From positions 1 to 64,000 of the IMG/VR virus record IMGVR_UViG_3300033153_006243: a stretch of DNA of 64,000 nt; one strand, written 5' to 3'. How positions within the stretch are numbered: the first letter of the stretch is position 1; each line of letters opens with the position of its first letter. Shown here piece after piece: positions 3,457 through 62,849 of the stretch. This DNA comes from a virus. Under the pieces are notes generated by a model. It was not told where the DNA came from, did not search any database, and worked only from the letters and a program-made list of their open reading frames with translations. The position numbers were made by a program, and so were the translations under genes.

Positions 3457-4464
3457 GTGGCGAAGAAAGCAACGTCGAAGAATATAATCAATAGCCTCGG
3501 AAGGAAGTCTTTGGCCCCAGTGACCCATTGGCTTTCGACGGGGAGTACCCTTCTTAACCTAGCGATCTCCGATAGGCCGGGGGGAGGGTTCCCTGCCGGA
3601 CGGATATCTCAGGTTTATGGCCCCAACTCGACGGCAAAGACAGTGCTAGCAATCGAGCCGCTAGGTTCTGCGCAGAGGCAGGGGGGCCGGGCGTTCTTTG
3701 AGGACGCGGAGTTCACCTTTGACGAAAATAGGGCAAGGAGCCTTTTCGGGGTGGACGTAGATTCCCCCGAATGGTCCTATAGAAACCCAACTTCTATCGA
3801 GGAGCTTTTCGATGCCAATATCTCGAAGGCAATCGAGACGATAGGAAAGAAGACCGACCATCCGCACTTTATGTCCGTTGATTCCCTCTCTTCCCTGCCG
3901 TCCGCCGCGGAGATTGGGAAGGACTTGGAGGATACGGGCTACGGGACGAGCAGGGCGAAACAGTTCTCTACGGCGTTCCGAAAGTACATCTGGCCGTTGA
4001 ACGCGGCGAATCTTGGGGTTCTCTTCGTTGACCAAAGCCGAATTAACATATCAGGGTATGGTGAGAAGCTGGTGACTTCTGGGGGAGAGGCGCTGAAGTT
4101 CTACGCCTCGGTGCGGGTGAAGGTAACCTTAGCGAAGAAGCTGATCAACAGGAATAAGATAGTCGAGGGTGTCCAGATACATTTCCAGGTCGTGAAGAAT
4201 AAGGTGGCGTCTCCGTTTAGGGAGGGGGACTTCCGATTCATCTTCGATTATGGGATAGATGATATTGGCTCGAACCTTGAATGGCTTAAGGAAGACGAGG
4301 GGGGATGGTATAAGTTCGGGGAACTAAAGGCTCAGGGCCTCGATAAGATGGTACGTCTTATCGAGAAGGAGGAGAAGGAGGCGGAGTTAGTAGAGGCGGT
4401 CGAGGATAAGTGGCGGGAGCTATATCCGCCATCGGATAGGAAGCCGAAGAAGAGGGAGACATGA
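3457..4464 (+). CDS. RecA/UvsX-like recombinase
   Basis: This RecA-fold strand-exchange ATPase (335 aa) acts with the neighbouring SSB and the Mre11/Rad50 pair in recombination-dependent replication and repair. The Walker A is an altered GPNSTAKT near residue 50; classical RecA has GPESSGKT, so the usual Gly before Lys is Ala here. ATP-site Glu is in AFFEDAEFTF, Walker B is FMSVDSLSSL near 140, and the L1/L2 region includes NISGYGEKLVTSGGEALKFYAS. The C-terminus is short and basic. The start is GTG after AAAGGGAAATAGG. The stop overlaps the next start (ATGA). Confidence 0.88.
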   Translation: MAKKATSKNIINSLGRKSLAPVTHWLSTGSTLLNLAISDRPGGGFPAGRISQVYGPNSTAKTVLAIEPLGSAQRQGGRAFFEDAEFTFDENRARSLFGVDVDSPEWSYRNPTSIEELFDANISKAIETIGKKTDHPHFMSVDSLSSLPSAAEIGKDLEDTGYGTSRAKQFSTAFRKYIWPLNAANLGVLFVDQSRINISGYGEKLVTSGGEALKFYASVRVKVTLAKKLINRNKIVEGVQIHFQVVKNKVASPFREGDFRFIFDYGIDDIGSNLEWLKEDEGGWYKFGELKAQGLDKMVRLIEKEEKEAELVEAVEDKWRELYPPSDRKPKKRET

Positions 4465-4742
4465 GTGAGAACTTCAGTGATGGGGTCAAGGCGGTGCTGG
4501 ATGAGGCAATACAACGTATGTTTGAGCTAAGTTGTTATGTAACTGATTACGGGCATACGCATACTAAGGCTCTCCGTTCCGGCATCACCGAAATCAAGGA
4601 GGCGCTGGAGTTAGTCAAAGAACAGAGAGAAGCCCTTCAATACATTAGAAACGAGTTGGGCGTACCAACCGATGACTATCCTATATCCGTGGTAAATGCA
4701 TCACAGCGGGCATGGGAGGCGTTACAGGAGCCAGAACCATGA
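4461..4742 (+). CDS. small hypothetical protein, N-terminus duplicated at 13764
   Basis: The first 13 residues, MSENFSDGVKAVL, are identical to those of the gene at 13764, and the DNA is nearly identical there too. The rest of the two proteins differs, although both have a later ITEIKEAL / IAEIKAAL segment. Both genes begin by an ATGA overlap with an upstream ATPase gene (RecA here, Rad50 C-half there). No known function. The protein is helical. Confidence 0.65.
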   Translation: MSENFSDGVKAVLDEAIQRMFELSCYVTDYGHTHTKALRSGITEIKEALELVKEQREALQYIRNELGVPTDDYPISVVNASQRAWEALQEPEP

Positions 4743-6095: not shown

Positions 6096-6928
6096 AAGCG
6101 ATTCCGGGCGACGAAGAGACTAGGGCGGCTGCGCTAGTTAATAATGCTAGGATATTTATTGGTCTTGATCTCTCCTTGAACCACTGGGGAATGGTGGGAA
6201 TGAGTAGGGGCGGAACGGTCGAGTTCGTCGCCTTCATTTCCGAAAGAAAGAGGCCGGTTACGGTGCTTACCCAAATTAGAAGAAGAAAAGGATTTGCCTT
6301 TCCCATTACGACGATAGGGCACTACCCCAATAAACCGAAGGGGATGGCTTCGGAACAGTTTATCGCAGTTCGTAGGAGGGATATGCTTGGGTTGGTTCAA
6401 GCGGCGCAGGCAAGAGCACAAGTAACCGCGAGGACAGGAAGGGTTCTTTGGCAGGACGATAGCGAGAGGGTGCTGGCGATAGAGGGATACGCCTATAACG
6501 CAAGGTCCCGCTCGACTTACCAGATAGGGGAGCTGGGGGGAATGGTGAGGAATCTATTCTACGAGAGTGGGGCGGTGATTAAGGAATACGATCCGCAGAC
6601 CGTGAAGATGTGGGGAACGGGAAGGGGGAATGCGATAAAGAAGGACATGAGGGGTGCGGCGGTAGGGAGATTCGTACTTCCCGACTACCTATTTGAGGAG
6701 AAGAAGGAGGACCTAATAGGTCCGGGGACGGATTTGGTTGACGCTTTCTTCCTTGCGGACATGGCGAGGCAGGAATTCCTTTATCGTTCGGGGGAGAGGA
6801 GCTTCGATTCCCTGAGTGAACATCAGAGGAGGGCATTTAATCGAGTAACGAAGAGCAATCCTGTTCCGCCGGTGGCAAGACCTTTGGTTCATAGGAGTGA
6901 TGGTTGGAAAGGAGAAAAGGATGAGTAA
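6092..6928 (+). CDS. RuvC-like Holliday junction resolvase
   Basis: This RNase H-fold endonuclease (278 aa) should cut recombination junctions before packaging. The acidic residues expected for RuvC are visible: D in FIGLDLSLNHWGMV near residue 26, E in LAIEGYAY near 133, and the paired acids in TDLVDAFFLADMAR near 215. An insert of about 60 residues separates strand 1 from the rest, longer than in bacterial RuvC, and a C-terminal basic tail is present. The start overlaps the RNA ligase stop (ATGA). The assignment rests on motif order and spacing. Confidence 0.8.
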   Translation: MKAIPGDEETRAAALVNNARIFIGLDLSLNHWGMVGMSRGGTVEFVAFISERKRPVTVLTQIRRRKGFAFPITTIGHYPNKPKGMASEQFIAVRRRDMLGLVQAAQARAQVTARTGRVLWQDDSERVLAIEGYAYNARSRSTYQIGELGGMVRNLFYESGAVIKEYDPQTVKMWGTGRGNAIKKDMRGAAVGRFVLPDYLFEEKKEDLIGPGTDLVDAFFLADMARQEFLYRSGERSFDSLSEHQRRAFNRVTKSNPVPPVARPLVHRSDGWKGEKDE

Positions 6929-17641: not shown

Positions 17642-17660
17642 GGAAACTAGGATGAAAAAT

Positions 17661-17770
17661 ACGGCGGGGTCCGCCGGAATTCAAGCCTGTGGAGAAGGGG
17701 AGGCAATGCCCCTCTGTGAAGCAGGAACCTTAGCGCAAGGGGGAAGGGAGGTTAGTAAGAAATTGGTCTC
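17661..17770 (+). ncRNA. TnpB-3'-end-like structured RNA (omegaRNA-like), copy A
   Basis: The block resembles the 3' end of tnpB genes, which in IS200/IS605 elements encodes the omegaRNA scaffold. In one frame it reads TAGSAGIQACGEG...CEAGT, like a TnpB C-terminus, and the real TnpB at 17929 ends with a related TAGSAECNASGGE. Predicted helices: CGGCGG (17662-17667) with CCGCCG (17671-17676); GGGG with CCCC around 17697-17712; and AACCT with AGGTT framing CCTT/AAGG. Copy B at 39.9 kb keeps these helices with compensatory changes. It sits directly upstream of a CRISPR-like repeat run and tnpB. No clear promoter was found for this copy. Confidence 0.7.
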
Positions 17771-17910
17771 TTTCCCACGCGCGCGAGGAGACCAGGCTTA
17801 CGCTCGGCAGGAAGTTCTATCCTTTTCCCCACGCGCGCGAGGAGACCAGGAGAAGCTTCCGGCCCCGCCTTAGACTGGGCCCTATTTCCCATGCGCGCGA
17901 GGAGACTAGA
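17771..17910 (+). CRISPR. three-repeat CRISPR-like mini-array
   Basis: The repeats are at 17771-17796, 17824-17850 and 17885-17910 (26-27 bp, core CACGCGCGCGAGGAGACC). The spacers are about 27 and 34 bp. The repeat looks like a type I-E CRISPR repeat, and reading through it gives the PRARGD peptide typical of mis-translated I-E arrays. The last repeat is degenerate (ATGCG, ACTAGA), as at the distal end of a real array. No cas1/cas2 or Cascade genes are in the window. The array is short and its spacers have no target found here, so function is open. Confidence 0.6.
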
Positions 17911-17928
17911 GGGTTCTAGGAATGAAAA

Positions 17929-19128
17929 ATGAGAATCTCTAAATCCTATAAGACGGAACTTAGGCCGACTGAAGCCCAGGCTAAACGTTTCTCGCAGTGG
18001 GCGGAGGCGGTCAATCTCGTCTATAATCTTGCGCTCCGGGCAAGGAAGGATGCGTGGGAGAAGGAGAAGAAGACTCTCGGATGGTACGAGCAAAGCAAAC
18101 AACTTACCCAGTTTAAGAGGATCGGGAAGTTTGCCACGCTTAGAGATGTTCCGTCAAGCACCCTTGAATTTCCTCTTCGTAAGGTGGATTTAGCCTACCG
18201 AAACTTCTTTCGTCGAATCAAAAGAGGGGAGAAGCCGGGCTTTCCGAAGATGAAGCCGGAAAAGGGATATAGGAACTCATTTAAGCTGAGAAGCACTATT
18301 CACGTTGACGAGGATGCAATCAAGCTTCCGAAGGTAGGATGGGTTCGGTTAAAGGAGAAGGGATACCTGCCGACCGAAGGGATTAAGATTCTTTCAGCTA
18401 CGGTATCCGAAAAGGTAGGGAGGTGGTTCGTAAGCCTCAACTTCGAGCAGGAGATTGAAATTGAAAAGGCGGAAGGGCCGCCGATTGGAATCGACTTAGG
18501 TATAACCTCCCTTGCGGTGGTGTCGGACGGTAGGAGATTCGAGAACCCGAAGGCGCTGAAGAGAAGCCAAAAAAGACTGGTACGATTCCAAAAGGAATGG
18601 AGCAGGCGGAAACCGGGGAGCAAGAATAGGGAGAAGACAAGGCAGAAGATAGAAAAGCTCCATTATAGGATTGCCAATCTCCGTAAGGACGTTTTGCATA
18701 AGGCGACGAGCGAGATAACGGGAAAGAGGCTGTCGCCGGAGGAAAGGCCAAGAACGATAGGGATGGAGACGTTAAACGTCAAGGGGATGGTAAAGAATAG
18801 GCATCTAGCTAGGGCGATCTCCGATGTAGGTATGGCCGAGTTTAGGCGGCAGATGGAGTATAAGGCGGAATGGCGCGGTGAGGAGATTATCCTTGCCGAT
18901 AGATTCTTCCCGTCGTCGAAGAAATGCTCCGCCTGCGGATGGGTAAATAGGGAACTGAAGCTAGGCGATAGGAAATGGACTTGTGTTGAATGCGGCGTAG
19001 AGCACGATAGGGACTTGAACGCCGCGATGAATCTAAGGGATATAGCTACCGCTGGGTCGGCGGAATGTAACGCCTCTGGAGGCGAGGAAGTATCTTCGTC
19101 CATGAAGGAGGAATTTCAATATGTTTGA
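17929..19128 (+). CDS. tnpB: TnpB RNA-guided nuclease (IS200/IS605-type)
   Basis: At 399 aa this is full length for TnpB, the Cas12 ancestor that cuts DNA guided by an omegaRNA. The N-terminus (SYKTELRPTEAQ) and helical wedge are present. RuvC-I has Asp in GIDLGITSLAV (residue about 187), RuvC-II has Glu in TIGMETLNVKG (about 281), the zinc finger is CSACG...CVEC (about 330-350), and RuvC-III has Asp in HDRDLNAAMNLR. All three catalytic acids are intact. There is no tnpA nearby. Its own 3' end is diverged from the omegaRNA-like block, which instead lies upstream. The ATG is preceded by a near copy of the sequence flanking that block. Confidence 0.9.
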   Translation: MRISKSYKTELRPTEAQAKRFSQWAEAVNLVYNLALRARKDAWEKEKKTLGWYEQSKQLTQFKRIGKFATLRDVPSSTLEFPLRKVDLAYRNFFRRIKRGEKPGFPKMKPEKGYRNSFKLRSTIHVDEDAIKLPKVGWVRLKEKGYLPTEGIKILSATVSEKVGRWFVSLNFEQEIEIEKAEGPPIGIDLGITSLAVVSDGRRFENPKALKRSQKRLVRFQKEWSRRKPGSKNREKTRQKIEKLHYRIANLRKDVLHKATSEITGKRLSPEERPRTIGMETLNVKGMVKNRHLARAISDVGMAEFRRQMEYKAEWRGEEIILADRFFPSSKKCSACGWVNRELKLGDRKWTCVECGVEHDRDLNAAMNLRDIATAGSAECNASGGEEVSSSMKEEFQYV

Positions 19129-19351
19129 AAAGACCAGGAACTGGAAGAAAGCCGTCCTAAACTTGGTGAAGCTTGTTATTCTCTGGTTACTAGGCCGTAC
19201 CCGGAAGCAGAGGAAGAGACAGGTAGAGAAGGCGCTAATGGCGGCGAAGAAGAGGGCAAAATCTTATGAGAAGGCGATTGTTATGGGCGATGCTCGTCGT
19301 ATGTCTAATGATCTTGATAATCTTCTTAGGCGGCTGCGAAGAGGCCGATAG
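19121..19351 (+). CDS. small membrane/coiled protein, possible inner spanin
   Basis: It starts within the TnpB stop region after GAAGGAGGAATTTCAAT. One hydrophobic segment (AVLNLVKLVILWLLG) near residues 11-25 is followed by a very basic helix. A lipoprotein gene begins inside it in another frame, the layout of Rz/Rz1 spanins that fuse the two membranes at lysis. The strongly basic tail is unusual for an inner spanin, so this is a hypothesis. Confidence 0.5.
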   Translation: MFEKTRNWKKAVLNLVKLVILWLLGRTRKQRKRQVEKALMAAKKRAKSYEKAIVMGDARRMSNDLDNLLRRLRRGR

Positions 19352-21146: not shown

Positions 21147-22047
21147 TGTGAAACTATTGGCTGTAAAAACCCCCGTAATATATCTAAAAAGGCGGTTTTG
21201 GCTTCTATCATATAGGTAGGAATTCTGCAATCTGTAAATGGCCGAGAAACGACTTATAGTTCGCTTTTAGGCCGGAAAGGATTAGTATTCTGGCTTTGCA
21301 CGAAGAGGCATAAATAATTTGGTTTTGGCTGAGAAGACGAGAATGATTTGTTTCTAGCTGGAAAGGTAGGAATAATCTGCTTTTAGGCCGGGAACTAGAA
21401 CCGTTTTGTTTTCAGGGAGGGAAGCAAGAATAATTTGTATTTAGTTAGAAAAACGAAACCGATCTGCTTTTGGGCTAAAAAATAGGAAGGATATACTTTT
21501 TGGTTAGAAACGAGGAATATATTGCTTTCGGGCTCAAAAGCAAAAGTGATCTGCTTTTAGGCCGGGGACTAAGAGTATTCTCCTTTTGGACGGAGGATTA
21601 GAACTGATCTGCTTTTTGTCAAGAAGCCAGAAGCGATCTGTTTTTGAGGCAAAAGGGAAAAGTAAAATGTTTTTGAGGCAAAAGGGAAAAGTAAAATGTT
21701 TTTGAGGCAAAAGGGAAAAGTAAAATGTTTTTGGCCAGAAAAGTAGAATTGATCTGTTTTTAGGTAAAGTGGCAAAAATGATTTATTTTGGGCCGAAAAG
21801 AGGAAACTATTCGTTTTTGGGTAAGAAGGTAAAAATGATCCACTTTTGGGTAGGAAACGGAAAATGATCCGCCTTTTGAGGGAAAGACGAAACCGATCCA
21901 CTTTTGGGCTGGAGAACAAAAGCGATCTATTTTTAAGGAAGAAACCAAAAACGATATATTCCTTTGTGAGCTATTTCGATAAACCGCTCTAACGGTAGCG
22001 TAAGGGGGGTTTTTGGGATGAAAAGTATCAAGTTTTAGGAGAGGGGC
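21147..22047 (+). other. 900-bp gene-free region holding the 29-nt array
   Basis: From 21147 to about 21233 the sequence is irregular but already has G-TTTT segments. From 21234 to 21957 it is the tandem array described separately. From 21958 to 22047 it contains AACCGCTCTAACGGTAGCG with a following G and T run, a possible terminator, then the AGGAGAGGGGC ribosome site of the methyltransferase gene. No coding gene is supported on either strand. Confidence 0.7.
21234..21957 (+). repeat. 25 tandem degenerate 29-nt repeats
   Basis: The units begin with G, C or A plus a T4-T5 run, continue with GGSC and purine-rich sequence, and end near GATCT or AATTT. They follow each other every 29 bases from 21234 to 21957, with a single one-base deletion (unit 21785-21812). 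Three identical units lie at 21640-21726; the others have diverged widely but kept their length. Because 29 is not a multiple of three, this is not a repeated peptide. Iterons of a replication origin, a partition or protein-binding array, or a repetitive RNA are possible. Confidence 0.85.
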
Positions 22048-34752: not shown

Positions 34753-35080
34753 AGCGCCTATGCCGTTTATCGCACCGAAGAGACAGAGGGAAAGAATTGA
34801 GCAGGCGAGAACGATGAGGATTAACCTTACCGTCGAGTCGAACGCCCATGAGATTCTTAAACGTATAGAGAACGAGATCGGCGGGCGGGTTGAACGAATC
34901 GAGATGGCGATTAAGGAGCTTACCGAGGCGATAGAGGACTTAGAGGGGCTTGAGGAGACATTCGAGATTGAGATGACCTTGCGGCCTAATGCAAAATGGA
35001 AGGAACCGAAAGAGAAGAAGCCCTCGTGGATTACGTGGGTATGGAGGCTGTTTGGGGTTCCAGGGCAGGCTAATCGGTAG
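34736..35080 (+). CDS. coiled-coil hypothetical protein, 3' end overlaps tRNA-Gln
   Basis: 114 aa, with charged helix RIENEIGGRVERIEMAIKEL. The C-terminal region EKKPSWITWVWRLFGVPG is Trp-rich. The last 22 bases also encode the 5' end of the tRNA-Gln at 35059. Function unknown. Confidence 0.55.
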   Translation: MPETNRAPMPFIAPKRQRERIEQARTMRINLTVESNAHEILKRIENEIGGRVERIEMAIKELTEAIEDLEGLEETFEIEMTLRPNAKWKEPKEKKPSWITWVWRLFGVPGQANR

Positions 35081-35130
35081 GCCAACGGACTTTGAATCCG
35101 TCAGAGGAGGTTCGATTCCTCCCTCTGGAG
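35059..35130 (+). tRNA. tRNA-Gln (TTG)
   Basis: Seven-base acceptor TCCAGGG / CTCTGGA, anticodon stem ACGGA/TCCGT with loop CTTTGAA, and T-arm GGAGG TTCGATT CCTCC. No CCA is encoded. Its 5' end overlaps the upstream coding gene. Confidence 0.88.
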
Positions 35131-35135
35131 CAAAC

Positions 35136-38885: not shown

Positions 38886-39836
38886 ATGAGGATCGAGGAT
38901 CTCGATTCAGAACGGATTACTAAGCTGACCGACGGGCAGCTCTATTCCATGCGGCTGAGGTTCATACAGATTTGGGATCGCTGGTTTACAAAGGGGACTC
39001 TACGGCTTAATGCCGCAGGGGGCCTTGACAGGGGGGAACTCCTGTCAAAGTATCAGGAGCTTGCCTCTGAGATGGGAAGTAGGAACCTAAAATTCAAGAG
39101 GCACCATAGTATCGACCGGGCGGCGTCGAAGGCTAAGATGTTCTTAGGTATTGATGTTCCCTCTCTTCCGACAAAGATAATTTCTGAGGGGTTCGTCTCT
39201 CTGGGGAAGGGATTCGTCGAGGATCCGAAGGGTGCTAAGATAATCAAAGTCATCGTGAAGGGGGATAAGTCCGCCGCGCTTGAGAAGTACATTGCCAATA
39301 TCCTAGATGGAATGGGCAAGCCGTTGGAGTTCTCCTTTGGAGAGCCGGAGGAGACCCATGCAATGGTCTATGACCTTGCCTTGATCCCACGACCTGAAAT
39401 GGCGATAGTCAAGATTAAGGGGGGAACGGTTCCGGCTTCTTCCCAGAAGGTTAAGAAGGCCGAAGCTAATTTTGGGTTTGAGATTATGAAGGTAGATGAG
39501 GATAAGCATCTTATTGGTGGGGTAATCTACGCTCCTGATGAGGTTGATTCACAGGGGGATTACACCGATGCTGAAGAAATCTATAAGGCTATGGAATACT
39601 TCATGATCAATAGCCAGAAGATCAAGGTAATGCATAAGGGCAGGCAGATTCGGGCGGCAGTAATTGAAACCTATCAGGTTCCTATAGATTTGGATCTCTA
39701 TGGTAGGGAGATTAAGAAGGGAACTTGGTGGATGACCGTAAAAGTTCTTGCCGAACCGGATGTATGGAATGATGTTAAATCAGGGAGATTCGGGGGATTC
39801 TCGATGGGTGGTAGGGCTATGGTAGCTGAAGAATAG
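38886..39836 (+). CDS. XkdF-like prohead protease domain protein
   Basis: 316 aa. The C-terminal half has the XkdF signature: GVIYAPDEVDSQGDYTDAEE, IKVMHKG, IKKGTWWMTVKV and SGRFGGFSMGGRAM. XkdF-like proteins are putative serine proteases of the capsid. The N-terminal 180 residues are different and may be a scaffolding or linker part. ATG after AGGAGAAAGCGA. It is followed by a 320-bp gap with a ncRNA gene. Confidence 0.85.
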   Translation: MRIEDLDSERITKLTDGQLYSMRLRFIQIWDRWFTKGTLRLNAAGGLDRGELLSKYQELASEMGSRNLKFKRHHSIDRAASKAKMFLGIDVPSLPTKIISEGFVSLGKGFVEDPKGAKIIKVIVKGDKSAALEKYIANILDGMGKPLEFSFGEPEETHAMVYDLALIPRPEMAIVKIKGGTVPASSQKVKKAEANFGFEIMKVDEDKHLIGGVIYAPDEVDSQGDYTDAEEIYKAMEYFMINSQKIKVMHKGRQIRAAVIETYQVPIDLDLYGREIKKGTWWMTVKVLAEPDVWNDVKSGRFGGFSMGGRAMVAEE

Positions 39837-39846
39837 AATATTTGAT

Positions 39847-39875
39847 TTGACTTTTTACATGATTTCTGTTATAAT
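39847..39875 (+). promoter_or_regulatory. sigma-70 promoter of the stand-alone ncRNA gene
   Basis: TTGACT at 39847-39852, 17-base spacer, TATAAT at 39870-39875. The predicted start is near 39882. It lies in the late gene cluster, where no other such promoter was seen. Confidence 0.88.
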
Positions 39876-40000
39876 ATAGGCGCAAGAGAATACCGGCGGG
39901 TCGCCGGGATTTTAAGCCTATGGAGATGGAGAGAAAATCTCCTCTGTGAAGTAGGAACCTTAGCGCAAGGGGGAAGGGAGGTTAGTAGAAAGTTAATCTC

Positions 40001-40026
40001 TTTCCCACGCGCGCGAGGAGACCAGG
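40001..40026 (+). repeat. solitary CRISPR-like repeat
   Basis: Identical over 26 bases to the first repeat of the array at 17771-17796 (TTTCCCACGCGCGCGAGGAG plus ACCAGG). It is a single unit with no second repeat, inside the copy B transcript. Solitary repeat units in phages are known as a source of RNA anti-CRISPRs. Confidence 0.8.
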
Positions 40027-40091
40027 AAAGGAATAGGCCAGGCTCGTATAGCAGGCCGTTCGCAGCGTTGGGAATCTACTCGTATAGTAGA

Positions 40092-40130
40092 CCCGCAGCA
40101 CTGGAAACAAATCGGTGCTGCGGGTTTTTT
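40092..40130 (+). terminator. Rho-independent terminator of the ncRNA gene
   Basis: CCCGCAGCAC (40092-40101) pairs perfectly with GTGCTGCGGG (40115-40124), followed by six T. It is one of the strongest intrinsic terminators in the window. Just upstream, TCTACT (40075-40080) pairs with AGTAGA (40086-40091). Confidence 0.92.
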
Positions 40131-40157: not shown

Positions 40158-41597
40158 TTGCCAGAAGCAAAGAGAAAGTTAAAGAACATCCAGCCGGAGG
40201 AAATTTCCCTTGTGGACTTTCCGGCGAATATGATCCCGTTCTTCTTTATCAAGCAGGACGAAAGGCTTGAGAAGGCAGAAGCGTTGAGCCTTGCAATTGG
40301 ATCCGACGGAACCGCCGCCGGGACAGAGATTCAGGTCAACGGAAAGAAAATCAAGGATCTCAAAGAGTTTAGCTTTTCCTATTGGGTTCCTGATACTCCT
40401 ACTGCGGAGGTATCGGAGACAATGGGGGATCAGTTAGCTCCTATGATTACCGCAACTTGGGCGGTAAAAGGGGACAAAGCGGGGTTTAGGCATATCTACG
40501 GGATTAGCAAGGCGGAGATTGACGAGGCAAGGAAACTTTCGGGGGAATTGAACGACGCCGAGGAAATGAAGAAGGCATCGGCGCTTCTTGAGACCTATAG
40601 GGAGGACCTTCCATCCGATCTTGCCGGGGCGATGCAGTTCTTGATTAGTAAGGCCCGTGGACAGGGACAGGGAGTTGGGGGTCCGCGACAGGGGGATGGT
40701 GGCGCGGATAAGTGTGTATGCCCCGATTGCGGGGCGGAATACCCACATGATAGAGGAACGCCATGTAATGAACAGACCTGCCCGGAATGTGGTGCTACGT
40801 TAGTAGGCAAGGCCAAGGGGGGGCCAGTTCCTCCGCATACATCTCCAAAGGCCCCTGAAGATATGGCTTGGAGTAAGCCGAAGGATTCCGAGCTGAAGGA
40901 TTCCCATTACGCTTGGATTGACCCGGAATATGCAAGCGGGGAATCCGAAGATAAAAGTAAGCGGAAACTTCCTCACCACCTACCTGATGGCAGGGTGGTC
41001 TGGCGCGGGGTTGCTGCCGCTGCCCAAAGGCTTGACGGAACTGATATCCCCGAAGGTGATATGGCAGGGGTAAGGAAGCATCTTGAACGGCATTATACCC
41101 AATTTGATAAGACGCCTCCGTGGAAAGTTGAAAAAGGAGATGAAGAGATCGATACAACCGAAGTTTCTAAGGCGCGGGTAAAAATGCTAAAGGAACTCGA
41201 AGACTCCTTGGGAGCCGCATCGAAGATCATACGGGACCTAGCGGAATCCTTTAAGCCCGTCCAGAAGGACGAGGAGGGGGATACCGCCGGGGACGCCGCG
41301 GACGCTTCGGAGGGAACCGAGGATAAGACCGAGGACGCCGCTTCGGCGGGCGATAAGGATGGAACTACTGCGGTGGCTGAGCAGGGAACCCAGGCAGGCG
41401 ACGCTAAGGACGGCGATGCGAAGGCCGAGGGAGCCGAAGAGGCCAGCGGAGGGGCGGGGGAAGATAAGACCGAAGCCTCCGCATCATTGTATACTCCCGA
41501 ATTCGCCGAGACTATTGCTTCAACAGTAGGTACAGCGGTTTCGGAAAGTGTAGGTAGATTACTTGGTACTAATGACAAAGAAGGGAATTCAGAATGA
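40158..41597 (+). CDS. scaffold/structural protein with Zn-ribbon (479 aa)
   Basis: TTG start after AAAGGAGGGAACCTATA is better than upstream frames, which run through the ncRNA. The N-terminus (EEISLVDFPANMIPFFFIKQ) resembles capsid-linked putative scaffold proteins. A zinc ribbon CVCPDCGAEY...CPECGATL is in the middle. Then comes HHLPDGRVVWRGVAAAAQRL with DMAGVRKHLERHY, a module found in phage prohead proteins. A long acidic Ala/Glu/Asp/Gly tail (about 90 residues) precedes a C-terminal helix. Acidic, disordered tails are typical of scaffolds. The stop overlaps the capsid start. Confidence 0.7.
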   Translation: MPEAKRKLKNIQPEEISLVDFPANMIPFFFIKQDERLEKAEALSLAIGSDGTAAGTEIQVNGKKIKDLKEFSFSYWVPDTPTAEVSETMGDQLAPMITATWAVKGDKAGFRHIYGISKAEIDEARKLSGELNDAEEMKKASALLETYREDLPSDLAGAMQFLISKARGQGQGVGGPRQGDGGADKCVCPDCGAEYPHDRGTPCNEQTCPECGATLVGKAKGGPVPPHTSPKAPEDMAWSKPKDSELKDSHYAWIDPEYASGESEDKSKRKLPHHLPDGRVVWRGVAAAAQRLDGTDIPEGDMAGVRKHLERHYTQFDKTPPWKVEKGDEEIDTTEVSKARVKMLKELEDSLGAASKIIRDLAESFKPVQKDEEGDTAGDAADASEGTEDKTEDAASAGDKDGTTAVAEQGTQAGDAKDGDAKAEGAEEASGGAGEDKTEASASLYTPEFAETIASTVGTAVSESVGRLLGTNDKEGNSE

Positions 41598-42724
41598 ACG
41601 AAATCGAATTCCAGAAGGCTTTGTCTGACGGGATTACTAAAGCGGTTGATGAGGCGCTTGCGCCTTTGAAGAAGACCGTCCGGAAATCCTCTGGTGCTAC
41701 TGAGGTTATTGAGGTAAATCGGGTTCGCCCCTTTTCCATTGCCAAGTATTTCCGTGGTGCATGGAAAGGGAACTGGACTGATGCCAACTTGGAGAAATCC
41801 GAGTACGTCAAGATGAATAAGGCTCTTGGCGGGGGCACTGGTGCAGGTGGCGGGTTCCTGGTTCCACCTGAGTATTCCAGCGAAATCATCGAGCTTGCGA
41901 GGGCACAAGCCGCCGTTCGCAATATGCCTGGTGTTCGCACCGTGAATATGAAAGGGGACCAACTCAATATCGTGGCACAGTCAGGCGCAGGCACGGCCTA
42001 CTGGGTAGGTGAGAATAAAGAGAAGACCTCTGCCGATGCTACGTTTGAGCAGAAGTCTCTCGTCCTGAAGAAATGCGCGGCCCTGACCTACGTCTCTAAT
42101 GAGCTTTTGGATGACGCAGATCCTGCGGTCGATGACATAATCAAGGGCGACCTTAGTATAGTTCTTAGTCTTGCTGAGGATATTGCGTTCCTTGAAGGCG
42201 CAGGGGGCGCGGCTCCAAGCGGGCTGTTTACTACGGCGAATGTAGGATCAACTACAGTAGCCGGACTCGTTAGCTATGACAATCTAATCGACGCGATTGA
42301 CGACATCGAAGGGAATAATGGCATACCTAACGGCTGGCTGATGCATCCGAGCGCGAAGAACAGCGTCCGTAAGCTCAAGGACGGCGAGGGCCGTTTCGTT
42401 TGGGATAGTGGCGACGTGACGAAGAAAGAGCCGCCTTCTCTATTTGGATTGCCTATAGGACTCTCGACTCAGATCTCTACGACCTGTAATGAGACGACCG
42501 GGGCGCTTGATGCTTCTGGTACGGATTACACCTATATCGTCCTTGGCGATTGGAGACAGTTCATGATCGGTCAGAAGGCTGGGGAGGCAATCGTAATTGA
42601 GGCTAATGCTCAAGATACGACCTCCTGGACTTATGACCAAACGTCCTTCAGAGCGGTTCTGAGGACGGATTGTCTAGTAAGACAGCCTACTCATTTCCAC
42701 ATTTTGAAGGCTGTCAACTTCTAA
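41594..42724 (+). CDS. major capsid protein (HK97 fold)
   Basis: 376 aa. The N-terminal 80 residues form a delta-like helical segment. The mature start may be near GGGTGAGGGFLVPPEYSSEI, a classic HK97 capsid start. Later landmarks are AYWVGENKEKTSAD, LTYVSNELLDDAD, LEGAGGAAPSGLF and a C-terminal FRAVLRTDCLVRQPTHFHIL. Overlap with the scaffold gene supports co-translation. Confidence 0.92.
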   Translation: MNEIEFQKALSDGITKAVDEALAPLKKTVRKSSGATEVIEVNRVRPFSIAKYFRGAWKGNWTDANLEKSEYVKMNKALGGGTGAGGGFLVPPEYSSEIIELARAQAAVRNMPGVRTVNMKGDQLNIVAQSGAGTAYWVGENKEKTSADATFEQKSLVLKKCAALTYVSNELLDDADPAVDDIIKGDLSIVLSLAEDIAFLEGAGGAAPSGLFTTANVGSTTVAGLVSYDNLIDAIDDIEGNNGIPNGWLMHPSAKNSVRKLKDGEGRFVWDSGDVTKKEPPSLFGLPIGLSTQISTTCNETTGALDASGTDYTYIVLGDWRQFMIGQKAGEAIVIEANAQDTTSWTYDQTSFRAVLRTDCLVRQPTHFHILKAVNF

Positions 42725-61862: not shown

Positions 61863-61936
61863 GCCGGAGTAGCTCAACTAGGTAGAGCAGTCGCCTTGTA
61901 AGCGAAACGTTGAGGGTTCAATTCCTTCCTCCGGCC
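61863..61936 (+). tRNA. tRNA-Thr (TGT)
   Basis: Acceptor GCCGGAG / CTCCGGC, anticodon loop CTTGTAA, and T-arm GAGGG TTCAATT CCTTC. First tRNA after the structured RNA. No CCA encoded. Confidence 0.9.
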
Positions 61937-61939
61937 CCT

Positions 61940-62203
61940 ATGAAATTCAAAATCTACGGCAGGGAATCCTGTCCCAAATGCCAATCTACCCGGCGTAAGA
62001 TTTTCCACCTGCTCAAGCGGATAGGAATAGAGGCGGCGATATCCTATATCGAGATGGATACGGTGGATGGGATGGCGGAGGCGATGTGGGACGATGCCTA
62101 TGAAGTACCTACTACGATCCTCTCGCTTGGCGGGGCGGAGATATCCCGATGGAACGGACGGATTCCTAAGTCCGATGAATTGATTAAGGCGATGGGGGAA
62201 TAG
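61940..62203 (+). CDS. glutaredoxin-like protein between tRNA genes (87 aa)
   Basis: Thioredoxin fold with CPKC active site in FKIYGRESCPKCQSTRRKIF and a cis-Pro segment VPTTILSLGG. The start ATG lies three bases after tRNA-Thr, and the stop overlaps tRNA-Ala by ten bases. There is almost no room for a ribosome site. The protein may serve ribonucleotide reductase or redox control. Confidence 0.82.
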   Translation: MKFKIYGRESCPKCQSTRRKIFHLLKRIGIEAAISYIEMDTVDGMAEAMWDDAYEVPTTILSLGGAEISRWNGRIPKSDELIKAMGE

Positions 62204-62267
62204 CTCTAATTGGGAGAGCGGCTGGTTTGCACCCAGTATGTTCGGGATTCGATTTCCCGTTCCTCCA
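62194..62267 (+). tRNA. tRNA-Ala (TGC)
   Basis: Acceptor GGGGGAA / TTCCTCC, anticodon stem GCTGG/CCAGT with loop TTTGCAC, T-loop TTCGATT. The 5' end overlaps the glutaredoxin stop. The AlaRS fragment at 20665 might relate to this tRNA; that is speculation. Confidence 0.85.
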
Positions 62268-62273
62268 CAATAT

Positions 62274-62356
62274 GCGGGTGTAGTCTTTAGGACGTCAAGA
62301 GACTAGGGCATTGCGCAATGCCTGAGTGGAAAATCAAATCTCCTCCACCCGCTCCA
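62274..62356 (+). tRNA. atypical tRNA-like gene with 8-base anticodon loop and encoded CCA
   Basis: Acceptor GCGGGTG / CACCCGC is perfect, with T and CCA following. The D-arm is long (GTCT...AGAC). The anticodon stem GGGCA/TGCCT encloses an eight-base loop TTGCGCAA instead of seven. The T-stem is poorly paired. It could be a degenerating tRNA or a frameshifting one. Identity cannot be given. Confidence 0.45.
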
Positions 62357-62362
62357 ATTTTT

Positions 62363-62434
62363 AGCATCGTAGCGCAACGGTAGCGCAGCTCCCTGTTAAG
62401 GAGATGATTGGAAGTTCGAATCTTCCCGATGCTG
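62363..62434 (+). tRNA. tRNA-Asn (GTT)
   Basis: Acceptor AGCATCG / CGATGCT, anticodon loop CTGTTAA in GCTCC/GGAGA stem, T-arm GGAAG TTCGAAT CTTCC. All arms are normal. Confidence 0.9.
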
Positions 62435-62439
62435 CTGAC

Positions 62440-62513
62440 GGTTACGTAGACTGGCGAAGTAAGTCACTTTCCTGTCAAGGAGGAGATCGCGGATTCAAAT
62501 TCCGCCGTAACCG
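62440..62513 (+). tRNA. tRNA-Asp (GTC)
   Basis: Acceptor GGTTACG / CGTAACC, D-stem GAC/GTC, anticodon loop CTGTCAA, T-arm CGCGGATTCAAATTCCG. Only the anticodon stem has G-T pairs. Confidence 0.85.
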
Positions 62514-62521
62514 CCTTTAAT

Positions 62522-62592
62522 TGCGGAGTGGAGCACTGGAGGCTCATGGGTCTCATACGCCCATTAAGGAGGTTCGATTCCTCCCTCCGCTA
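62522..62592 (+). tRNA. tRNA-Met (CAT), initiator-like
   Basis: Anticodon loop CTCATAC in stem TGGGT/GCCCA, T-arm GGAGG TTCGATT CCTCC. The first acceptor position is a T x T mismatch (62522 with 62591), then six normal pairs GCGGAG/CTCCGC. The D-stem has an A11-T24 pair. A 1-72 mismatch and A11-U24 are initiator hallmarks; the third (three G-C pairs next to the anticodon) is only partly met. Confidence 0.8.
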
Positions 62593-62594
62593 CT

Positions 62595-62647
62595 ATGGGG
62601 GCCCGGCTGTGACCCAGGAGATGGGAGTTCAATTCTCCCCATCCAGA
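62595..62647 (+). tRNA. tRNA-His-like remnant without D-arm
   Basis: An anticodon arm with loop CTGTGAC (GTG) and a good T-arm GGGAG TTCAATT CTCCC are present, but the D-arm and matching 5' acceptor strand are missing. It is probably a deleted tRNA-His gene. Confidence 0.4.
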
Positions 62648-62771
62648 CTCGATAGTATCATTACCAGATATACATTAGTGGATAGGTTTTTATCAAGGTA
62701 GTATATGTCCTTTACCAGAGGTAAGGGACCCACAAAGGCTTCTGCCGCTGAGCCGTATCGGCGGCATACTA
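62648..62771 (+). other. 124-bp spacer with hairpins in the tRNA array
   Basis: TGCCGC (62740-62745) pairs with GCGGCA (62760-62765). CCTTTACC with GGTAAGG near 62710-62730 forms another hairpin. No tRNA cloverleaf or gene could be recognised here. Confidence 0.4.
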
Positions 62772-62842
62772 GCGGAGCTGGTGTAATGGTAGCATCCTTG
62801 CCTTCCAAGCAAAGGGTGGGGGTTCGAATCCCCCGTTCCGCT
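62772..62842 (+). tRNA. tRNA-Gly (TCC), second copy
   Basis: Acceptor GCGGAGC / GTTCCGC, anticodon loop CTTCCAA, and T-arm GGGGG TTCGAAT CCCCC. It has the same anticodon as 35136 but a different sequence, so it is not a recent duplicate. Confidence 0.9.
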
Positions 62843-62849
62843 CCTATTA

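Follow-up and report, generated by a model that had tools for sequence, protein, structure and literature searches.

The region at positions 39847-40130 of the 64,000-nucleotide stretch of phage DNA analysed here (the window), which is part of a virus record with a full length of 85,443 bases, probably represents a dedicated gene for a trans-acting guide RNA, or solo omegaRNA, serving the phage's own TnpB, a reading to which a probability of about 0.78 is assigned. From its sequence, the encoded RNA (copy B) appears to be a complete stand-alone TnpB guide RNA, and it is one of three omegaRNAs in this phage, the others being copy C, at the tnpB 3' end, and copy A, which lies upstream of tnpB and leads a three-repeat array. 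TnpB is the ancestor of CRISPR-Cas12, and in IS605 elements the omegaRNA is located at the 3' end of tnpB. The original prediction had offered a trans guide for TnpB as one of two possible functions, and this proposal is well supported, as sequence, structure and covariation all place the RNA in the omegaRNA family, and a single TnpB, its RuvC residues intact, is encoded in the same record.

By analogy with the TnpB of ISDra2, which binds and trims its RNA and cuts in a TAM-dependent manner with a 16-nt guide (PMC10097598), transcription from the copy B promoter would yield an RNA of ~245 nt, the scaffold of which would be bound by TnpB and the 3' side trimmed to a guide of ~16-20 nt, and the complex would then cut DNA bearing a match next to a TAM. 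Copy B would in this way widen the guide repertoire beyond the mini-array of the tnpB-linked copy A and the canonical guide of copy C.

Anatomy and genomic setting of copy B

Table 1. Features of the three omegaRNAs, the repeat array and tnpB (window coordinates)
Feature	Position	Strand	Description
Copy A, omegaRNA scaffold directly upstream of tnpB	17657-17795	+	covariance model 74.7 bits; first repeat 17767-17795
Array repeat 2	17819-17849	+	after spacer 1 (17796-17818)
Array repeat 3, degenerate, just before tnpB start	17880-17909	+	after spacer 2 (17850-17879)
tnpB	17929-19128	+	399 aa; RuvC D189, E280 and D362 intact
Copy C, canonical omegaRNA overlapping tnpB 3' end	19044-19137	+	54.4 bits, outside training set; ends ...AAAAGACCAG, guide next
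Copy B promoter, sigma70-type	39847-39875	+	TTGACT, 17-nt spacer, TATAAT; TG before -10 (extended -10)
Copy B omegaRNA 5' core	39888-39957	+	hairpin 1 (CCGGCG/CGCCGG), GCCTATGGAG, hairpin 2, GAAGTAGGAA
Copy B anti-repeat	39957-39992	+	ACCTTAGCGCAAGGGGGAAGGGAGG...; pairs with repeat; same as copy A up to loop
Copy B guide-proximal hairpin strand (the solitary "CRISPR-like repeat")	39997-40025	+	TCTCTTTCCCACGCGCGCGAGGAGACCAG
Copy B predicted guide	40026-40045	+	GAAAGGAATAGGCCAGGCTC; start and length predicted
Copy B intrinsic terminator	40089-40130	+	perfect 10-bp stem CCCGCAGCAC/GTGCTGCGGG, then TTTTTT

Copy B occupies a gap of 321 nt in a capsid operon that is otherwise tightly packed, with adjoining genes overlapping or separated by ~20 nt (Table 1). 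The gene for the head maturation protease (38886-39836) is its 5' neighbour, while the genes preceding that for the major capsid protein (41594-42724) follow on its 3' side. The nearest tnpB lies ~20 kb away and no remnant of a tnpB accompanies copy B. The promoter matches the consensus at 11 of 12 positions, and sites of at least 11/12 in the 85-kb contig number six on the plus (coding) strand and none on the minus strand, against 0.4 per strand expected in Markov sequence. Given this rarity, the location of such a promoter exactly 5' of the copy B RNA is not attributable to chance. The RNA itself is strongly structured (folding z = -5.3), with none of 200 shuffled sequences folding as low. 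The anatomy foreseen in the original prediction was thus recovered in full, namely a stand-alone ncRNA gene with promoter, structured RNA, repeat and a terminator with six T, set among capsid genes with no adjacent tnpB, and so were the homology of its scaffold with copy A (85% identity over 139 nt, 17658-17796; E = 2e-39) and the identity of its repeat with that of the array. The latter is exact for array repeat 1, with 24 nt of the copy B repeat (CTCTTTCCCACGCGCGCGAGGAGACCAGG) being the same in repeat 2 and two differences occurring in repeat 3. Further occurrences of GAAGTAGGAA at 39076 and of GAAGCAGGAA at 79960 are ascribed to chance, neither being matched by the covariance model described below.

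A single TnpB domain was identified in the record, in the protein encoded at 17929-19128, which matches the NCBIfam guided_TnpB model with 303 bits and is also matched by the PADLOC Cas12u4 and Cas12f models. Among sequences of solved structures, the TnpB of ISDra2 is its closest natural relative (230 bits), with a partial match of 102 bits to LaTranC. The 85-kb record, possibly an incomplete one, yielded no Y1 transposase TnpA (PF01797). In a tree of 68 TnpB proteins, the window protein groups with those of viral contigs L028 and L030 with moderate support (86/78), while those of L041 and L127 are placed elsewhere.

Scaffold family and repeat array

The copy B scaffold is a member of a family of viral TnpB omegaRNAs, as observed in its sequence, structure and covariation. 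An alignment of 17 scaffold copies supports three helices with 16 pairs, in which 93% of cells are paired, compared with 35-47% when the partners are slid by 1-3 columns, and the covariation value of 0.557 falls to 0.05-0.14 in the slid alignments. The conserved fold, comprising hairpin 1, a CCTG..CAGG stem and hairpin 2, is present in copy B, the 5' core of which is matched by the covariance model R1, built from 17 copies, with 67.7 bits (E = 6e-16), copy B itself being in the training set. The model matches 52 of 70 viral TnpB records (18/20 and 34/50), some of which supplied training copies, and related viral TnpBs carry the same scaffold at the tnpB 3' end. Among the 43 pairs predicted for copies A and B, from the same two sequences that are compared, five show double (compensatory) changes and none is broken. 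As the helix differences are compensatory and no pair is lost, both copies appear to be maintained as RNAs. Copy C, which had escaped the original prediction, overlaps the tnpB 3' end, in keeping with the definition of an omegaRNA as overlapping or directly following that end, while copy B lies 20 kb from tnpB and is therefore filed as a trans-encoded variant only and not as a canonical member. Searches with exact peptide and DNA patterns revealed no close relatives of the TnpB or the scaffold, and blastn yielded no match for copy A in phages or for copy B in plasmids.

The "CRISPR-like repeat" of copy B is the guide-proximal hairpin strand of the omegaRNA itself, paired to an anti-repeat in the scaffold. 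This hairpin strand is repeated as a mini-array in this phage and alongside related viral TnpBs. The array led by copy A contains three repeats and two spacers, with spacings of 54 and 60, whereas copy B has one repeat only. Repeats 2 and 3 are not preceded by scaffolds of their own, yet they are fully complementary to the anti-repeat, with pairing energies of -31.7 and -28.7 kcal/mol, respectively (0/300 shuffles as low), compared with -28.1 kcal/mol for repeat 1. The same pairing energies are obtained with the anti-repeat of copy B. Such complementarity is what would be expected if repeats 2 and 3 formed crRNA units that rely on a tracrRNA-like scaffold. Copy A, and perhaps copy B, could thus double as a tracrRNA, since the array repeats retain full complementarity to the anti-repeat. 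By eye, the CCA of GACCAG can also pair with the TGG of GCCTRTGGAG, over 3 bp only, and might form a guide-proximal pseudoknot comparable to that of ISDra2 (PMC10097598). The exact 20-nt repeat had no match in the viral contigs. The degenerate last repeat abuts the tnpB start (17880-17928), a layout shared with contigs L127 and L143, and within the tnpB leader it might be a site of processing or autoregulation.

Occurrence in other viral contigs and alternative explanations

For IscB, there are reports of omegaRNAs encoded at loci of their own. Most of the additional omegaRNA copies in other viral records adjoin another tnpB. Two stand-alone omegaRNAs (L118:1540-1660 and L119:1585-1685) occur in a 441-kb phage with a tnpB elsewhere, with no TnpB encoded in the ~3.2 kb around each, and a weaker, degenerate third solo case was observed in L115. 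A pattern scan of viral contigs identified more than ten further omegaRNAs without a TnpB in the stretch examined, which took in 0.8-2.5 kb on the upstream side and at most 1.5 kb on the downstream side. Trans omegaRNAs therefore recur in phages. The solo copies (L118, L119, L129, L137, L154, L159, L187 and others) belong to the same family as copy B and likewise have no adjacent tnpB, but they are mostly single canonical omegaRNAs, and at least two (L137 and L154) resemble deletion remnants with tnpB 3' ends, whereas copy B combines an array-type repeat with a near-consensus promoter. A general association of solo omegaRNAs with a downstream terminator was not shown, with terminators following 2/17 solo copies, 2/54 linked copies and 11/355 random positions. 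Arrays led by an omegaRNA, as in copy A, are found in L028, L030 and L041. The last of these has two arrays at its viral TnpB (2165-2950 and 4155-4617), each with its own scaffold, with 11 units upstream and six, partly degenerate, downstream. In L127 (reverse strand, scaffold core at 6290) and L143, an upstream omegaRNA leads an array of three repeats (TTCGAGTGGTAGGTTATTTTAAGAGGGACTCGGAG) directly before tnpB. Regular CRISPR arrays were also observed beside viral TnpB/Cas12-like genes of other branches, with four repeats in L050 (2687-2942) and seven in L104 (4534-5012).

Several alternatives to a trans guide for TnpB were considered. Copy B may also, or mainly, act as a tracrRNA, its scaffold pairing in trans with the crRNA-like array units 2 and 3 so that split and fused guides coexist. 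Repeats 2 and 3 match the anti-repeat as well as or better than repeat 1, and do so with the same energies in copy B; however, copy A already provides the array with a scaffold of this kind in cis, and copy B retains its own repeat and guide, which would be needless in a pure tracrRNA. This explanation is considered unlikely. Slightly less weight still is given to copy B as a homing (drive) element at its insertion site, where a guide drawn from its right edge would direct TnpB to cut sibling phages lacking copy B, with repair from the genome bearing it. Homing has been proposed as a role of TnpB in IS605 transposons (PMC12477157), and TTGAT, the TAM of ISDra2 TnpB (PMC10097598), is found directly 5' of the -35 box (39842-39846). 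This motif, however, is short and not rare in DNA as AT-rich as this. The record yielded no TnpA, the array guides cannot be insertion flanks, and no close relative in which the site is empty was identified, the capsid relatives being only ~31% identical. Equally improbable is the view that copy B is a relic, or arose as a neutral duplicate of copy A. While omegaRNAs unaccompanied by tnpB are common among viral contigs, including the presumed deletion remnants in L137 and L154, copy B has no tnpB remnant and possesses a strong promoter and terminator, and its repeat and anti-repeat are unchanged, with only compensatory changes in the helices.

Lying between the protease and capsid genes and placing a terminator midway through a co-directional operon, copy B might also regulate capsid expression as a leader or attenuator, but its RNA family is that of TnpB guides and is found in unrelated gene contexts, which makes a regulatory role of this kind very improbable. 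The least credible of the alternatives is the other function offered in the original prediction, an RNA anti-CRISPR (Racr) occupying the Cas proteins of a host type I-E system. A phage ncRNA that has a promoter to itself and carries a solitary, superficially I-E-like repeat is in line with such a role. This repeat is, however, the 3' hairpin of the omegaRNA and pairs with the scaffold, and its 19-nt core was not found in any CRISPR array among 84,980 species, each represented by a single genome. The core has six single-copy matches in those genomes, without a TnpB or array, where 5-12 are expected by chance at 55-60% GC, and the Rfam CRISPR repeat families did not match copy B even at E = 5. 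The claim was consequently discarded.

Relation to known systems and the guides

The original prediction had also held that a scaffold joined to a repeat would be a new form of either kind of RNA, which is true in part only; every omegaRNA consists of scaffold, hairpin and guide. What is unusual is that copy B has a gene to itself and that the hairpin recurs in the copy linked to tnpB. The phage system resembles the TnpB-omegaRNA systems of IS200/IS605 elements, such as ISDra2 (PDB 8bf8, 8h1j; PMC10097598), in the homology of its TnpB, the 3' guide on a scaffold and the canonical place of copy C, but differs from them in that no TnpA was found in the record, a second, array-bearing omegaRNA lies upstream and a third, with its own promoter and terminator, lies 20 kb away. 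A TnpB-like effector, repeats and a tracrRNA-like part are shared with type V-U, Cas12n (V-U4) and LaTranC-like intermediates (PMC12669027; PMC11641405; PDB 9jfo). In Cas12n, the tracrRNA lies within the effector mRNA (PMC12669027; PMC11641405). The phage system differs in that the scaffold is still fused to repeat 1, as in a natural sgRNA, and heads the array upstream of tnpB, there is an extra fused guide in trans, only three repeats are present, and the closest solved natural chain is a TnpB rather than LaTranC. Phage-encoded TldR-gRNA pairs (PMC13418256) likewise combine a TnpB-family protein with a guide RNA, but TldR has a dead RuvC, and the identification of the window TnpB as a TldR was rejected on account of its intact RuvC residues. 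The literature searched contained no description of a single phage that combines canonical, array-leading and trans guides. Copy B and the array are accordingly classed as a variant of the already known OMEGA and type V-U intermediates. Jin et al. (Cell 2025) reportedly deal with such transposon-CRISPR intermediates.

The phage system resembles an intermediate step from the guide RNA of a transposon to a CRISPR system, and it bears on the question of how the single guide RNA of a transposon became a CRISPR array with a separate tracrRNA. Duplication and splitting of the omegaRNA have been proposed as the route (PMC10097598), and the proposed intermediates occur side by side here, as an unsplit omegaRNA, an array-leading omegaRNA with later repeats that can pair in trans, and an independent guide gene. 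Mini-arrays are present throughout the TnpB group of the window, L028 and L030, and the same upstream layout is found in the distant branch of L127 and L143. A more ambitious interpretation, possible but on balance doubtful, is that one TnpB uses three kinds of guide simultaneously, namely the ancestral 3'-end omegaRNA, an upstream omegaRNA doubling as the tracrRNA of the mini-array, and a promoter-driven trans guide expressed from the capsid operon against competing phages, which would make the system a living OMEGA/type V CRISPR intermediate. The system is of small size and open to direct testing, and with it compact nucleases that are naturally programmed in trans would join the repertoire of inter-phage warfare.

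Copies A, B and C all end in GACCAG, and the relatives in L069 and L070 in AACCAG; the likely start of the guide was placed on the basis of the repeat ends of copies A and C and these AACCAG ends. Within the phage's own 85 kb, no guide has a match better than 8 mismatches in 20, which makes self-regulation unlikely and suggests that the target is most likely foreign DNA, be it that of a competing phage, a plasmid or the host. Among the viral contigs, matches of 17-18 nt to the guide of copy B and the first array guide were at or below the chance level, with no shared 5' flank or TAM, and no guide targets were found in annotated phages. Seventeen nucleotides of the copy B guide match the tape-measure gene of another phage (L022:6095-6111, reading KGIGQA), the product of which is homologous to the tape-measure protein of the window phage; this match is at chance level and serves as a lead only, as do two matches of the first array guide (gA1) reading LPAERK. 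Elsewhere in the window, 29-nt tandem repeats (~3 perfect and several degenerate) occur at 21595-21970, where there are few forward-strand ORFs, and seven tRNA genes are located at 61863-62844 and 35059-35131, one of which (Gln) overlaps the start of the terminase ORF.
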